Assembly (NCBI GenBank): GCA_016212295.1
Contig: JACRGO010000065.1
Span: 1 to 7,473 of the forward strand
Reading direction: 5' to 3'
Length of the DNA stretch: 7,473 bases
Source of the DNA: Nitrospinota bacterium
Lineage (GTDB): Bacteria; Nitrospinota; Nitrospinia; JACRGO01
Part shown: positions 1,983 through 7,473 of the stretch, piece after piece
Numbering within the stretch: position 1 is the first letter of the stretch
How the letters are laid out: every line of letters begins with the position of its first letter
The notes under the pieces: model-generated
Database searches by the model: none
The model's input: only the letters and a program-made list of their open reading frames with translations
Told to the model about the DNA's origin: nothing
Position numbers and translations under genes: made by a program

Positions 1983-4109
1983 ATGTTTGAACGGCATAAA
2001 ATACAGAAAATCCTGGAGCAATTTTCCAAGCTTGATGAAAAGGCGCAGCGGGAAGGATTGGAAAAGCTTGCCGTCTACGGCAATACAGCCATCCCATATA
2101 TCTTCGACGCCCTGCGCAGGCGCCAGGTCCTCCTCACGGACGGAAGGAAAATCCTTTCCCGGCTTTACAGCAAGGACAACCTGGACGCGTATATTAAAAT
2201 GCTGAAAGAGCCGCGTGACGACATCCGAGGCATGGTGAAGGACGTCATCCAAAAAATAGCGGGCGCGGCCGCCATTCCAGCGTTGATGGAAAACTTCGGA
2301 CACGCGGACTTTCAGATCAGGAAGGCCGTGTGCGATCTCCTGTCCGCGATGGCGAACGACAAAATCATCCCACGAATTTCACCGTACCTGCAGAGCAAGC
2401 AAAAAGACATTCAAAAAAGCGCCATTGAACTCCTCGGCAGGATTGGAGGGGTCCAGGCGATCCCCCTCCTGACACCCTTTTTTAAAGAGGAGGACTGGTG
2501 GATACGGAGAAAGGCGGTGGACGCCCTTTGCAATATAAATGACAGCCGCGCCCTGCCTCCGTTGGCGGATTTGCTGGCCGGGGAGAAGGAGCCGCTTATC
2601 ATCAAGAGCATACTCGAGGCGTTCGCCGTTATCGGAGACAAAAGCATAGTTCCCTCCGTGCTCCCGTTTCTCAAGCACGCGGACCTGGTGATACGCCAAA
2701 AGGCGGTGGACGCCCTTGGGAAAACAGCCGCGGCGGACCATATCCCGGACCTTATGAAACTCATGAGGGAATCGGACGTGAACGTGCGCCGCGGCGCCGT
2801 TGAGGTATTGAACATGATCAAGGACCCGCAGGCCGGCAAGGTCCTGATCAAATGCGTGAAGGACAGCGATTGGTGGGTGAGGGAAATAGCGACCGACGCC
2901 CTGGCTGAGATTTCCGGCGGCAACATCAATCAGATGCTGGTCCGCCTCCTCTCTGATCCGGATGAAAACGTGAGGCGTTCGGCCGTGGAGTATTTTAACC
3001 GCGTCGCGTATCCTCCCGCTTATGAGTCTTTGCTGCGTCTACTGGACGACCGTGACTGGTGGGTGCGCGAGAAGGCCATCACCGCCCTTGGTAAACTCAA
3101 TAAACCGGAGGCCATTCCTCATATCATGCGGCTCGTGAACGACGCCGAGATCAAGTGGGCCATTCCCCATGCCTTGGGGGAAATAAAATCCGAGAAGGCC
3201 CTGCCGTACCTCCTGGCCTTGCTTAAGGACGCCGACAAGGCGGTGCGCATATCCACCTTGAAAGCCATCCAGAATTTAGACCATCCGGACGTAATTCCAG
3301 GCATCAAGGAGACGGCCCTGGACCATGACTTGGAGGTCGCGGACACGGCGCTTGCGATCCTGAAAAACAAGACCGGCAGGACCTTCGCGCGAAGCAGGGG
3401 CACGGAGCGCCGCGCCCCTACGCCCGGCGCCTCGCGCGGGGCGGCGGGCATGGCCCCGGCCAGCGTAATTCTTTCCCCACCCCAAACCTCCGGCGCCGGG
3501 GCCTTGAAGGAGGCCATCGTGGCGTTGGACCAGCGCGGCCCTGAGGGGCTGGAGGGAAAGACGGAAGACCCCTTCGCGGCTAGGCGCGGGCAGACACTGA
3601 CTGATTTCATGAAGCCTCTGGCCTCTGTCTACAAGGCGAGGTTCATGAACAGCGCCGACAGTGGTTTCCTTGGGGTTTTCAGTAGCGCCAGGGACGCCGT
3701 GCTTTTTTCCCTGGAGATGCTCAAGGCGGTACGGGAACATAACCAAAAAGTGGAGAGGATGGAGCGGATGCATCTGAGGCTGGCGATCCACGCGGGCGTT
3801 GTCAGGTCCGGCGCCGGGGACAAGCGTTCTGAAAGGGACGCCGCCTTGGCCTCCATTCTGAAAGGCGTTTCAAGGGAGATGCTGATTGAATGCAGGGGCG
3901 GGATGAAGGACTATGAAATGCCGGAAACCAACCGTTTATTTATCACGGAAGCGGTTTACAATCAGATAAAGGACATTGGGGACTTCAGGGTTTCGCTGGT
4001 GGGAATGTTCGAGCTGGATGGGACGGCGGAAAAAACAAGGGTCTACTCCGTTTCCGCCCAAGCCGAGGTTTCCGTGCAGGCGAGTGACCCTTGGACAGAG
4101 TTTGTGTGA
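1983..4109 (+). CDS. HEAT-repeat protein with degenerate class III cyclase-like domain
   Basis: This is a 708-residue protein from ATG 1983. An in-frame TTG at 1947 would add 12 residues, but it coincides with a plausible -35 box and has no ribosome-binding site. Residues about 26-460 are tandem HEAT/PBS-lyase-like helical repeats (xAVDALGxI, IPxLxxLL), a protein-binding solenoid. DWW(V/I)R occurs at W172, W297 and W359. Residues about 462-520 form an Ala/Pro/Arg-rich linker. Residues about 535-700 resemble the latter part of class III adenylyl/guanylyl cyclase domains (SGFLGVF, LRLAIHAGVV, RLFITEAVYNQI, ending RVYSVS). The usual GDGF metal-binding motif reads ADSGF, and no N-terminal DIxGFT motif is visible, so catalysis is unlikely and a sensory or docking role is more probable. 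No signal peptide or membrane segment is visible. It heads the plus-strand row that includes a cNMP-binding protein. Confidence 0.85.
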   Translation: MFERHKIQKILEQFSKLDEKAQREGLEKLAVYGNTAIPYIFDALRRRQVLLTDGRKILSRLYSKDNLDAYIKMLKEPRDDIRGMVKDVIQKIAGAAAIPALMENFGHADFQIRKAVCDLLSAMANDKIIPRISPYLQSKQKDIQKSAIELLGRIGGVQAIPLLTPFFKEEDWWIRRKAVDALCNINDSRALPPLADLLAGEKEPLIIKSILEAFAVIGDKSIVPSVLPFLKHADLVIRQKAVDALGKTAAADHIPDLMKLMRESDVNVRRGAVEVLNMIKDPQAGKVLIKCVKDSDWWVREIATDALAEISGGNINQMLVRLLSDPDENVRRSAVEYFNRVAYPPAYESLLRLLDDRDWWVREKAITALGKLNKPEAIPHIMRLVNDAEIKWAIPHALGEIKSEKALPYLLALLKDADKAVRISTLKAIQNLDHPDVIPGIKETALDHDLEVADTALAILKNKTGRTFARSRGTERRAPTPGASRGAAGMAPASVILSPPQTSGAGALKEAIVALDQRGPEGLEGKTEDPFAARRGQTLTDFMKPLASVYKARFMNSADSGFLGVFSSARDAVLFSLEMLKAVREHNQKVERMERMHLRLAIHAGVVRSGAGDKRSERDAALASILKGVSREMLIECRGGMKDYEMPETNRLFITEAVYNQIKDIGDFRVSLVGMFELDGTAEKTRVYSVSAQAEVSVQASDPWTEFV
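3396..3419. repeat. In-frame palindrome in the HEAT/cyclase linker
   Basis: AGGGGC-A-CGG (3396-3405) and CCG-C-GCCCCT (3410-3419) form a 10-position stem with one A-C mismatch around AGCG. It encodes Arg/Gly/Thr/Ala/Pro residues around 472-479 in the disordered linker between the HEAT and cyclase-like parts. It resembles AGGGGC/GCCCCT palindromes that are usually intergenic in environmental genomes. Confidence 0.5.
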
Positions 4110-4115
4110 GAAAGA

Positions 4116-4146
4116 CAGTTCACGGTTTACGGTTCACGGTTTACAG
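4116..4146. repeat. Left inverted arm of the four-helix cassette (heptamer array)
   Basis: Four heptamers run in register: TTCACGG (4119), TTTACGG (4126), TTCACGG (4133) and TTTACAG (4140). Positions 4116-4134 are a perfect 19-nt inverted match to 4510-4528. The arm starts 7 nt after the HEAT gene's stop codon and ends 22 nt before the ATG of the enclosed gene. No target-site duplication is evident. Confidence 0.85.
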
Positions 4147-4167
4147 TTGGTAAAACCAAAAAAACTT

Positions 4168-4524
4168 ATGAGCGCTTCTTTTGAGGATTTGGAAGTCTGG
4201 AAAAAATCCTGCCGGTTGGCGGTAACACTTTATGAATTATTGAGAGATTGCCGTGATTATGGTATTAAAGATCAAATGTTGCGCTCATCAATATCCATTC
4301 CCTCTAATATTGCGGAAGGGAGCGAAAAAAATAGCATTCCGGATTTTCAAAGGTTTATAAACATAGCAAAAGGTTCGGCGGCGGAACTGCGAACGCAAGT
4401 TTATATCTCAAGAGAGATTCATTTATTTTCAGATAAAGATTCAAAAAATCTGCTTAACGAATTGAAATCAATATCAAAAATGCTGCAAGCCTTGCATGAT
4501 TCATTAAAAAACCGTAAACCGTGA
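4168..4524 (+). CDS. Four-helix-bundle protein of the 23S rRNA intervening-sequence family
   Basis: This 118-residue protein starts at ATG 4168. The same frame is open further upstream, but only by overlapping the HEAT gene. It shows the family hallmarks: FEDLEVWKKS at the N-terminus, RSSISIPSNIAEG (residues 39-51), then FINIAKGSAAELRTQV (63-78) and a C-terminal helix. Length and motifs fit the S23/IVS protein family, related to the Avd accessory protein of diversity-generating retroelements. The biochemical role of stand-alone members is unknown. The gene is AT-rich compared with its neighbours, which suggests transfer. It lies between inverted heptamer arrays, and its stop codon TGA (4522-4524) lies inside the right arm. 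There is no clear ribosome-binding sequence. No 23S rRNA, reverse transcriptase or template repeat is present in the window. Confidence 0.9.
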   Translation: MSASFEDLEVWKKSCRLAVTLYELLRDCRDYGIKDQMLRSSISIPSNIAEGSEKNSIPDFQRFINIAKGSAAELRTQVYISREIHLFSDKDSKNLLNELKSISKMLQALHDSLKNRKP

Positions 4525-4538
4525 ACTGATAACCGTAA
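4510..4538. repeat. Right inverted arm of the four-helix cassette (heptamer array)
   Basis: Heptamers ACCGTAA (4511), ACCGTGA (4518), ACTGATA (4525) and ACCGTAA (4532) run in one 7-nt register. Positions 4510-4528 are the perfect 19-nt reverse complement of 4116-4134. The array overlaps the end of the four-helix coding sequence and provides its stop codon. Confidence 0.85.
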
Positions 4539-4556
4539 GCGTTTTTAATTTTTTAT

Positions 4557-5145: not shown

Positions 5146-5197
5146 AATATTTTTTTAATTCCTTGTAAAGTGTATAAGTCTTTGTGCTTCTTTTTGG

Positions 5198-5243
5198 CTT
5201 TGTGCCTTAGTGGCAAAAAAAATGACAACCACAAGGCGCAAAG
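5198..5243. repeat. Imperfect inverted repeat of TTTGTGCC type
   Basis: CTTTGTGCCTTAGTGG (5198-5213) pairs with CCACAAGGCGCAAAG (5229-5243) with one mismatch and a one-base offset, around an A-rich loop. It is the left neighbour of the perfect 29-bp inverted repeat and is built from the same words. Confidence 0.6.
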
Positions 5244-5247
5244 ACAG

Positions 5248-5342
5248 AAGGCACAGAGGCACAAAGGCAGAAGGCACAGAGGAAAAAGAGCGCTATTGTT
5301 GGGTTTTACTTTATGCCTTCTGCCTTTGTGCCTCTGTGCCTT
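5248..5342. repeat. Perfect 29-bp inverted repeat upstream of parA
   Basis: Positions 5248-5276 and 5314-5342 are exact reverse complements, leaving a 37-nt loop. The arms are built of GGCACAGA/GGCACAAA/GGCAGAA words with 7-8 nt spacing. A word block (CAGAAGGCACAGAGG) is duplicated at 5245-5259 and 5268-5282. The right arm ends 15 nt before the ATG of the ParA gene. Transcribed, it would form a very stable hairpin. There is no U-run, so it is more likely a dispersed element that could affect mRNA processing or stability than a terminator. Confidence 0.85.
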
Positions 5343-5357
5343 TGCTGAGTGAGCTAA

Positions 5358-6095
5358 ATGCGAAAGATAGTCTTCACTAACCAAAAAGGCGGGACCGGAA
5401 AGACCACCACTGCAGTCACTGTCGGGGCGGCGCTGGCCCTCAAAGGCAAAAAGACGCTGCTGGTCGATATGGACCCACAGGGCAATATCGGACATTGGTT
5501 CGGGGTCTCCCCTCAAAAAACCCTGTACCATGTGCTTGTCGAAGAGGCTGAACCGCTCCAGTGCATCCAGGAAATCCGGGAAAACCTTCATCTTATTTCC
5601 GGGAACAAGACCCTGGCCCAGGCGGAGATCATCCTTTCCAGCCGAAGCGGCAGGGAGAATGTCCTCAGCCGCGCCATGGAAAACGTTAACGGTTATGATT
5701 ATGTTTTATTGGATTGCGCCCCTTCCCTGAGCCTTTTGAACCTCAATTCCCTCACCTATTCCAATGAGGCAGTAATACCTGTCTCAATGGATTATTTCTC
5801 CCTGATCGGGGTGAGGGAGGCCATGGACAACATGAAGATGGTCCGTGAGCGCCTCGGCCATCCGATAAAACTTTCGCTCATTGTCCCGACTTTTTTCGAC
5901 AAGAGAAACCGCAAGAGCTTTGAAACCGTGGAGACACTTGAAAAAAATTTCCCGGGCGCGGTCAGCGGTCCCATAAGAATAAGCGTGAAGATGTCAGAGG
6001 CTGTGAGCTATAGGGAAGATATTTTTGCCTTCGCCCCGAAGTCAGGCATCGCCGGAGATTATAAATTGCTCGTGGAGAGGATAGACAATGCCTAA
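5358..6095 (+). CDS. ParA/MinD-type P-loop ATPase
   Basis: This is a 245-residue protein. The deviant Walker A KGGTGKTT lies at residues 10-17, with the signature lysine K10 and K15. The A-prime motif LLVDMDPQGN is at 34-43, and Walker B YVLLDCAPS at 115-123. Length and motifs fit the Soj/ParA group that forms ATP-dependent dimers on the nucleoid or a polar landmark. No ParB gene follows. Instead the CheA gene starts inside the stop region (ATGCCTAA, 8-nt overlap), indicating translational coupling. Orphan ParA-like proteins in chemotaxis operons (ParC of Vibrio, PpfA of Rhodobacter) position chemosensory arrays, so that role is inferred here. The ATG is preceded only by a weak GTGAG. Chromosome or plasmid partitioning is less likely in this context. 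Confidence 0.92.
   Translation: MRKIVFTNQKGGTGKTTTAVTVGAALALKGKKTLLVDMDPQGNIGHWFGVSPQKTLYHVLVEEAEPLQCIQEIRENLHLISGNKTLAQAEIILSSRSGRENVLSRAMENVNGYDYVLLDCAPSLSLLNLNSLTYSNEAVIPVSMDYFSLIGVREAMDNMKMVRERLGHPIKLSLIVPTFFDKRNRKSFETVETLEKNFPGAVSGPIRISVKMSEAVSYREDIFAFAPKSGIAGDYKLLVERIDNA
6074..6080 (+). promoter_or_regulatory. Ribosome-binding site of the CheA gene inside parA
   Basis: GGAGAGG lies 7 nt before ATG 6088, within the last codons of the ParA gene. It supports 6088 as the CheA start and close co-expression of the two proteins. Confidence 0.7.
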
Positions 6096-7473
6096 AAAAA
6101 AGAGACAAAAGCCTTCCATCGGCTCGGACCCGTTCAGCGGGCATGAAGAAATAATGCAAAGCTTTTTTTCTCCCGGACCGGAACCGGAAATTGAATCAAT
6201 TGACAATCGACAATTTTCAATCGACAATGATATGTTCCCGGCCTTCCAGTCGGAATTGGAAGAGGGGCTGGAGCGGTTGGACCCTCTTTTGGTTGACCTT
6301 GAAAAAAAACCCGATGACGCGGACCTGGTCAACGAGGCCTTCCGGATTGTCCACACCATCAAAGGCTCCTCCGGCTTCATGCAATTCAACAAGTTAAAGC
6401 ATCTCTGCCACGCCACCGAGGGCCTGCTGTCGCAGGTCAGAAGCAAGAAACTCCAGCTATCCGTGGCGCTTATGGACATAATCCTCCAGGCGGTTGACAA
6501 GATGAAGGAGGCCGGACTCAAAATCAAGGAAAACCGCAATGAAGAGGAATTCGACGCTGGGTCTATTGTCTTCCTTCTGGAAAGCCTTTCCGGGACGCCT
6601 GAAACCAGGGACCAGGAACCAGGAACCAGGGGCCAGACGCCAGGGGCCAGTTCCCAGTCACCAATTGACAATCGACAATCGACAATTGAAAAGGACGCTC
6701 CTGCCCCCTGCCCCCTGCCCCCTCCTCCCCCTGCAACTGGCAACTGGCAACCGGTAACTGATTCCGGCATCGATAAAAGCATTATAGATGATTTTATCAT
6801 AGAGGCCCAGGAAGGATTGGACCAACTGGATGCAGACTTGATTGCCCTGGAGGAAAATCCGGAGGACAAGGAGCTTCTTAACAAGGTGTTCAGGATCATG
6901 CACACCTTGAAGGGCGCCGCGGGTTTTATCGGACTGACGGGCATTCAAGCCACGGCGCATAAGTCCGAGGACGTCCTGAACAAGATCCGGTTCGGGGAAT
7001 TGAAATCCAGTCCCATCGTCGTGGATGTGCTTCTGGAAGCGCTGGATGTGGTGAAAAACCTCATCAAGGACCTGGCCGGCTCCGGCGTGGAAAATACGGA
7101 CAACTCCCACGTGGTGAAGCGATTGCAAATGGTTTTGGACGATCCTTCTCAATTGACGATTGACAATCAGAAATCGTCAATCGTCAATCGTCAAGTGAAA
7201 AGAGAGCTCCTGCCCCCTGCCCCCCAATCGTCAATCGACAATCGACAATTGACAATTGGTTCCAAACAAACCGCCAGCGCCATCAGGGTGGACGTGGACA
7301 AGCTCGACAATCTGATGAATCTCGCCGGGGAACTGGTCCTTGCCAGGAACAGGCAGATTCAATTGAACAGGGACATAGCGCCTGAGTTGAGCGGCAAGGA
7401 AAAGCTCATGGAAGAGGCGGGCGCGGCCGCGAACCAACTGGATTTCCTTGCCACCGAGCTCCAGTTCGCGGTC
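6088..7473 (+). CDS. cheA: CheA-type histidine kinase with two Hpt domains (3' end outside window)
   Basis: The frame is open for 462 codons to the window end with no stop, so the gene is truncated on the right. The first Hpt (P1) domain covers residues about 47-160, with phosphoacceptor His89 in FRIVHTIKGSSGF. The second covers about 229-350, with His272 in FRIMHTLKGAAGF. The CheA dimerisation domain (P3) begins near 396 (IRVDVDKLDNLMNLAGELVLARN) and is cut; ATPase and CheW-like domains should follow outside. In the family, CheA autophosphorylates Hpt histidines and passes phosphate to CheY/CheB. Two Hpt domains are typical of alternative systems such as those controlling type IV pili. The linkers at about 36-47, 173-223 and 356-390 are low-complexity and are encoded by heptamer repeats. 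The gene overlaps parA by 8 nt. Confidence 0.92.
   Translation, partial: MPKKKRQKPSIGSDPFSGHEEIMQSFFSPGPEPEIESIDNRQFSIDNDMFPAFQSELEEGLERLDPLLVDLEKKPDDADLVNEAFRIVHTIKGSSGFMQFNKLKHLCHATEGLLSQVRSKKLQLSVALMDIILQAVDKMKEAGLKIKENRNEEEFDAGSIVFLLESLSGTPETRDQEPGTRGQTPGASSQSPIDNRQSTIEKDAPAPCPLPPPPPATGNWQPVTDSGIDKSIIDDFIIEAQEGLDQLDADLIALEENPEDKELLNKVFRIMHTLKGAAGFIGLTGIQATAHKSEDVLNKIRFGELKSSPIVVDVLLEALDVVKNLIKDLAGSGVENTDNSHVVKRLQMVLDDPSQLTIDNQKSSIVNRQVKRELLPPAPQSSIDNRQLTIGSKQTASAIRVDVDKLDNLMNLAGELVLARNRQIQLNRDIAPELSGKEKLMEEAGAAANQLDFLATELQFAV
6193..6227. repeat. Five-unit heptamer array in the CheA N-terminal linker
   Basis: Heptamers GAATCAA (6193), TTGACAA (6200), TCGACAA (6207), TTTTCAA (6214) and TCGACAA (6221) all end in CAA. 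They encode ESIDNRQFSIDND-like residues before the first Hpt domain. The length, 35 nt, is five units. Confidence 0.75.
6604..6757. repeat. 22-unit phase-locked mosaic heptamer array between the Hpt domains
   Basis: One 7-nt register runs through 154 nt and several word families. NCCAGNN units (ACCAGGG, ACCAGGA and so on) fill 6604-6659. Then come ACCAATT (6660) and GACAATC/T units (6667-6687), followed by a short transition. TGCCCCC occurs three times (6702-6722), followed by a C/T-rich transition, then CTGGCAA units (6737-6750) and CCGGTAA (6751). It encodes the low-complexity linker between Hpt1 and Hpt2 without a stop codon. Confidence 0.85.
7153..7257. repeat. 15-unit phase-locked mosaic heptamer array before the CheA dimerisation domain
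   Basis: Fifteen heptamers run in one register: TTGACGA and TTGACAA (7153-7166), a TCAGAAA spacer, TCGTCAA three times (7174-7194), GTGAAAA and GAGAGCT, CCTGCCC twice (7209-7222), then CCCAATC, GTCAATC, GACAATC and GACAATT twice to 7257. The first units are inverted relative to the TCGTCAA units: TTGACGATTGAC (7153-7164) pairs with GTCAATCGTCAA (7176-7187). The length, 105 nt, equals 35 codons, and no stop codon is present. Confidence 0.85.

Follow-up and report, generated by a model that had tools for sequence, protein, structure and literature searches.

Heptamer arrays in cheA and across a Nitrospinota genome probably derive from small mobile elements with a PF05635 gene

The window analysed here is the whole stretch of 7,473 nt, taken from the host genome G000, and its features are collected in Table 1. 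At its right end lies the first part of a cheA-like gene, and the contig end at 7362-7473 is a 112-nt overlap, inside cheA, with contig C83 (L058, G000:C83 1-300). The three heptamer arrays that cheA carries in the window are all located outside recognised domains, and a fourth is found on C83. Further upstream, between a HEAT-repeat gene and a cNMP-binding gene, an IVP (S23/four-helix-bundle) element was identified; the window contains no rRNA. Two other places show inverted repeats: a gene-less inverted pair of 8/15-nt words (AGGCACAG/CTGTGCCT) at 5190-5345, just upstream of a parA-like gene, and C/G-rich inverted repeats (CCCCCTTTTTTAAGGGGG; CCCCCCTGGCAAGGGGGG) in intergenic DNA at 1480-1580. 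A ParA-based orthologue search of the genome contigs gave one distant match.

Table 1. Position and content of the features in the window
Feature	Position	Strand	Remarks
IVP (S23/four-helix-bundle) element	4118..4526	+	5′ heptamer arm, gene, 3′ inverted heptamer arm
5′ arm, GTTCACG/GTTTACG heptamers	4115..4148	+	reverse complement of the 3′ arm
Four-helix-bundle protein gene, PF05635 23S_rRNA_IVP, 118 aa	4168..4524	+	Pfam E 1.4e-34
3′ arm, CCGTAAA/CCGTGAA heptamers	4509..4538	+	reverse complement of the 5′ arm; inverted-repeat score 19
cheA-like histidine kinase, N-terminal part	6088..7473	+	two Hpt domains and a dimerisation domain by Pfam; cut by the contig end, goes on in C83
CAATCGA heptamer array	6197..6228	+	N-terminal linker of cheA; read SIDNRQFSID
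Compound heptamer array	6604..6758	+	between the two Hpt domains of cheA; words CCAG, GACAAT, TGCCCCC, CTGGCAA
Second compound array	7152..7258	+	between Hpt 2 and dimerisation domain; TGCCCCC and GACAAT words follow inverted GATTGAC/GTCAATC arms

A sequence-only reading of this DNA had drawn attention to the array between the two Hpt domains, and its heptamer periodicity is real and non-random: the lag-7 self-match is 0.69 over 6600-6765, with values of 0.20-0.37 at other lags (multiples of 7 excluded), and TRF reports period-7 blocks at 6603-6630, 6662-6686, 6700-6723 and 6733-6760. The same reading described the four word families as unrelated, which is doubtful since CCAG is the reverse complement of CTGG. 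It also placed all four in one unbroken 7-nt register, while the TRF blocks start at 2, 5, 1 and 6 modulo 7. Continuity of the register across transitions is supported for the drift from CCAG to GACAAT, where in-register intermediates (GCCAGTT, CCCAGTC and ACCAATT) occur at 6646-6666, and for none of the remaining families; this is the sole transition with such intermediates, and the approximately two units at 6688-6701 (GAAAAGG ACGCTCC) between blocks are unlike either neighbouring family. Since any of the seven positions in a tandem heptamer may serve as the first, every family allows seven rotations, and the apparent lock is mostly a choice of unit start. The alignment used in the sequence-only reading (rotation 0) was the best word match in 0 of 6 family pairs, and for GACAAT and TGCCCCC five alignments tie at two matches of seven. 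Random phase across the genome had been named in advance as the outcome that would count against a lock, and the data come close to it: for 38 neighbouring blocks of similar words, at distances of 3-40 nt, an in-phase count of 7.5 compares with 5.4 expected. Thus, with block starts out of phase and genome-wide phases near random, we reject phase-lock as evidence, and the chance figure of 1 in 343 falls with it.

What had been overlooked is that the arrays pair in inverted orientation and are associated with IVP genes. In cheA, inverted heptamer arms are clear at 7152-7205 and weak at 6604-6758. Accordingly graded are the computed folds: the region 7145-7265 folds strongly (z -4.7; none of 200 shuffles was as stable), and the halves of the array between the Hpt domains form a ladder of 4-bp CCAG:CUGG stems, one heptamer apart, which barely beats its shuffles (z -1.6) and whose complementarity is equalled in 14% of random array pairs. 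At the protein level, all four GACAATCGACAA blocks of cheA lie in one frame, which is without TGA and reads IDNRQ, and the CAATTGACAATCGACAATTGAC form has TGA in both other frames; the fourth of these blocks sits on the broken cheA of C83, which weakens it as frame evidence. On C83, the reading of cheA is interrupted behind EEIGDPM and continues in another frame from DPEKL, with roughly 50 residues lost around the kinase N/G1 boxes, by deletion or misassembly. The cheA orthologue of a same-genus genome (G001, 57% identical) has linkers without arrays, and the cheA arrays have thus been gained or lost since the split. Linker lengths differ in both directions, so that insertion and growth in place are indistinguishable for these arrays.

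Genome-wide counts were made on 814 kb of the host genome, taken in stretches. The 7-nt autocorrelation scan that the sequence-only reading had proposed gave 182 lag-7 segments with a score of at least 12, far above the other lags (0, 9, 21, 25 and 11 for lags 5, 6, 8, 9 and 10), i.e. a density of about one heptamer array per 4.5 kb, and 7 nt is nearly the sole short period in this genome. Array words vary from locus to locus and the period is kept. Tandem degenerate heptamers dispersed in this way over the genome are what defines heptanucleotide STRRs, and the suggested link to STRR-type repeats is thereby supported. Of the proposed copying of DNA in 7-nt steps, a genome-wide process in 7-nt units stands, and the holding of phase across words does not. 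Besides the arm at 4115, 23 lag-7 segments are located inside open frames of at least 150 codons, the cheA arrays included. As a possible mark of RNA copying, the balance of transitions and transversions was considered and set aside (805 versus 794, not diagnostic).

Many arrays have an inverted partner nearby. Within 400 nt, an inverted match with a score of at least 12 was found for 98 of the 182 arrays, with 19 for the flanks of other arrays and 3 for random places; at a score of at least 15 the numbers were 72, 8 and 1. The share of arrays with an inverted partner within 400 nt is therefore 40-54%; 80 arrays have no inverted partner, and only 19 of the 182 adjoin an IVP gene. Among gene-less pairs, a dispersed hairpin of approximately 190 nt with AAATCCCAAATGACAAATAGC... 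arms (L066:14740-14880) has more than 20 similar places in the 814 kb, and three inverted heptamer pairs (L066:5327-5436, L066:12761-12862 and L096:4995-5094) share a similar central spacer, CTTCCTGCT, and possibly form one miniature element family.

The element at 4118-4526 has a PF05635 ORF enclosed by a terminal complementary stem, as is characteristic of IVS/S23p sequences. Being located outside any 23S rRNA gene, it is an IVP element and not an rRNA IVS. The nearest solved structure to the product of its gene is Xcc0516 (2GSC, E 5e-19), and the transcript of 4105-4550 is computed to fold with its arms paired (z -4.6). Compared with a second copy in the host genome (L130 = G000:C208), the element is 83% identical over 417 nt, and similarity starts and stops at the arms. 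The PF05635 family has 18 matches in this genome. Moreover, we collected 72 IVP copies from the host genome, the same-genus genome, other families of the class and plasmids, which are not fully independent as some plasmid copies share a site: inverted flanks (inverted-repeat score of at least 14 within 250 nt) were present in 59/72 copies and in 13/2400 random intervals, and arms with a period of 7 or 8 bordered 55/72 copies and 19/2400 random intervals on both sides. The period of the 108 periodic arms was 7 in 85 and 8 in 19. The plasmid copies are mostly cyanobacterial; Riemerella and Azospirillum copies are also armed, and the Azospirillum copy, which has heptamer arms, lies inside a 23S rRNA gene and is a classical IVS. 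In one variant (L133:8800-9700), the IVP gene is flanked by longer, non-heptamer repeats (CTTTATCTTTATCTCC...) and heptamer arms are missing. Several IVP elements are squeezed in between neighbouring genes of an operon, for the most part reading in its direction: in cas loci (L176, L178, L185), between nrdA and nrdB (L171) and among conjugation genes (L174).

Comparisons of related sites show that these elements move. Three related elements at different sites of Nostocales plasmids are 79-83% identical over 411-420 nt from arm to arm and unrelated outside. Between plasmid C of Trichormus variabilis and Nostoc linckia (L184 versus L195), flanks that are 97-99% identical enclose a 423-nt insertion with duplication of GTAAT, and between plasmids of Nostoc ATCC 53789 (L183 versus L170), a 413-nt insertion duplicates TTCTA. 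Such a clean 5-bp duplication was seen at only 2 of 9 compared filled and empty sites; most other pairs differ by the insertion plus 11 nt to >100 nt of further difference. In Stanieria (L173 versus L201), one plasmid carries a gene-less heptamer hairpin and the other a gene-bearing element. Data from these comparisons show that IVP elements are mobile units bounded by inverted heptamer or octamer arms, which flank the genes in several phyla, and since the copies share their arms and both filled and empty sites exist, we conclude that the heptamer arms are the ends of the IVP mobile elements. As for a driver, the host genome has one reverse transcriptase gene and two Y1 transposase genes, none of them tied to IVP elements, and with so few genes both candidates were dropped.

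The association of arrays with IVP genes also appears across the phylum. In a survey of 77 genomes, 20 of which have an IVP gene, we searched for a TGAC-type heptamer pattern and for its reversed form, which had been planned as a control and itself describes heptamers. Ten genomes contain arrays of either kind, and every one of them has an IVP gene (Fisher p 1.7e-7); with the reversed pattern excluded, arrays are present in 8/20 IVP genomes and 0/57 others (p 6e-6), where the effective sample is small because the genomes with arrays and IVP genes fall in about three clades. Matches of a second word pattern fall in a largely overlapping set of genomes.

Taken together, we consider it probable (about 0.6) that the heptamer arrays of this genome, those of cheA included, derive from small mobile elements that have inverted heptamer or octamer ends and, as their only gene where one is present, PF05635. 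The roughly nine-tenths of arrays here that are solo or form gene-less inverted pairs would then be non-autonomous copies or relics; mobilisation of the elements may be helped by the IVP protein together with a candidate recombinase or reverse transcriptase acting in trans. The drifting words might come about as slippage or hairpin processing adds or removes 7-nt units and point mutation makes arrays diverge, and inside cheA the survival of arrays would be limited to interdomain linkers and a stop-free frame. The cheA arrays hold no intact IVP gene (the family matches in the genome were checked); hence it is word type, inverted pairing and genome context that point to an origin from element ends, and we infer that these arrays are most likely gene-less derivatives of IVP elements tolerated between domains.

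Most arrays lie away from IVP genes, as would be expected if a polymerase or repair bias for 7-nt steps made arrays everywhere, into which IVP elements insert as guests or which they acquire. In many genomes, heptanucleotides outnumber every other repeat class, with polymerase contact length as a proposed cause, according to work cited in PMC4679880, and the copy number in the Coxiella IVS differs by one heptamer between strains (PMC4990558). However, generic slippage explains neither the inverted pairing of arrays, nor the mirrored arms of the same word that bound IVP genes in several phyla, nor why related copies match from arm to arm and no further. The Trichormus and Nostoc linckia pair is already one case of recent insertion, with complete arms, at an array-free site, and we regard this explanation as unlikely, albeit deserving of weight. 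A separate heptamer-generating process would produce a largely similar pattern if it also shaped the arms of IVP elements.

Gene-less hairpin pairs, the 190-nt family among them, and the two Y1 genes would also be compatible with REP/REPIN-like hairpins mobilised by a RAYT (Y1, HUH) transposase. REPs, however, are conserved sequences of 20-40 nt without a tandem period, whereas words here change by locus with the period kept, and two Y1 genes are few, which makes this origin improbable. A single process that copies in 7-nt steps, with words switching and phase held across families, would account for the in-register intermediates between CCAG and GACAAT; against block starts that are out of phase and near-random phases across the genome, little credence remains for it, slightly less still than for a RAYT origin. 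Finally, a draft genome of short contigs and a window that ends in a contig overlap within cheA could suggest an assembly artefact, but hundreds of arrays with different words, a frame that stays open through the arrays of cheA and complete plasmid records with this same architecture reduce this to a very slight chance.

Beyond this genome, derivation of arrays from mobile IVP elements could be extended, as a conjecture that we hold at somewhat less than even odds, to heptanucleotide repeats throughout the bacteria: the STRRs of cyanobacteria, GGGAATC of Xanthomonas and TAACTGA of Beggiatoaceae might belong, as arms or as relics, to one widespread class of IVP/S23 transposable elements, in which some enzyme would make and remake the arms in 7-nt (or 8-nt) steps and relics would be recruited as protein linkers. 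If true, a bacterial repeat class of so far obscure source would be given an origin, and this problem would merge with the question of where 23S rRNA intervening sequences come from and how they move, in a form testable in culturable cyanobacteria. Moreover, it would suggest that ‘four helix bundle’ genes between cas, nrd or conjugation genes are hitchhikers and not members of those systems, and short repeats would have a route to become protein linkers.

Parts of this picture are known from other systems. The IVS of 23S rRNA with an S23p/IVP ORF (Leptospira, Coxiella, Azospirillum and others) likewise carries its PF05635 gene between terminal inverted repeats, which pair into a long stem, and the Coxiella IVS contains tandem heptamers (GACAGAT) in 2-3 copies, varying between strains (PMC4990558). 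Unlike rRNA IVS, the elements described here are multicopy (15-18 family matches per genome) and located between protein genes, with target duplications at two sites and gene-less copies common. STRR and TAACTGA direct repeats of Cyanobacteria and Beggiatoaceae (PMC4679880) are also tandem heptamers, mainly intergenic and of scattered phylogenetic distribution, whereas here there are several words per array and some arrays in coding linkers; in the literature searched, no tie of these repeats to inverted pairing around an IVP gene was found. GGGAATC heptamers of Xanthomonas and Nostoc are genome-wide, with 70-75 convergent (inverted) pairs per Xanthomonas genome, and were interpreted by the authors as G-quadruplexes in a text without S23 or four-helix proteins (PMC4692102). 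Like the host genome, Xanthomonas has both heptamers and an IVP protein, Xcc0516 of Xanthomonas campestris, whose structure is solved. In cas loci, 18 IVP/four-helix-bundle genes have been noted (PMC3936711). Apart from the Coxiella IVS heptamers, the literature searched contained no paper that joins heptamer repeats genome-wide to IVP elements, and as most subscription papers and all preprints were outside that search, the genome-wide link is provisionally new. The Avd protein of diversity-generating retroelements has a four-helix-bundle fold and is said to be related; the only reverse transcriptase gene found in the host genome is on another contig (C142). As in REPIN/RAYT systems, short hairpin repeats are dispersed here without a full transposon; there, the sequence is conserved and the protein is a Y1 transposase, whereas here the period is conserved and the protein is a four-helix bundle.
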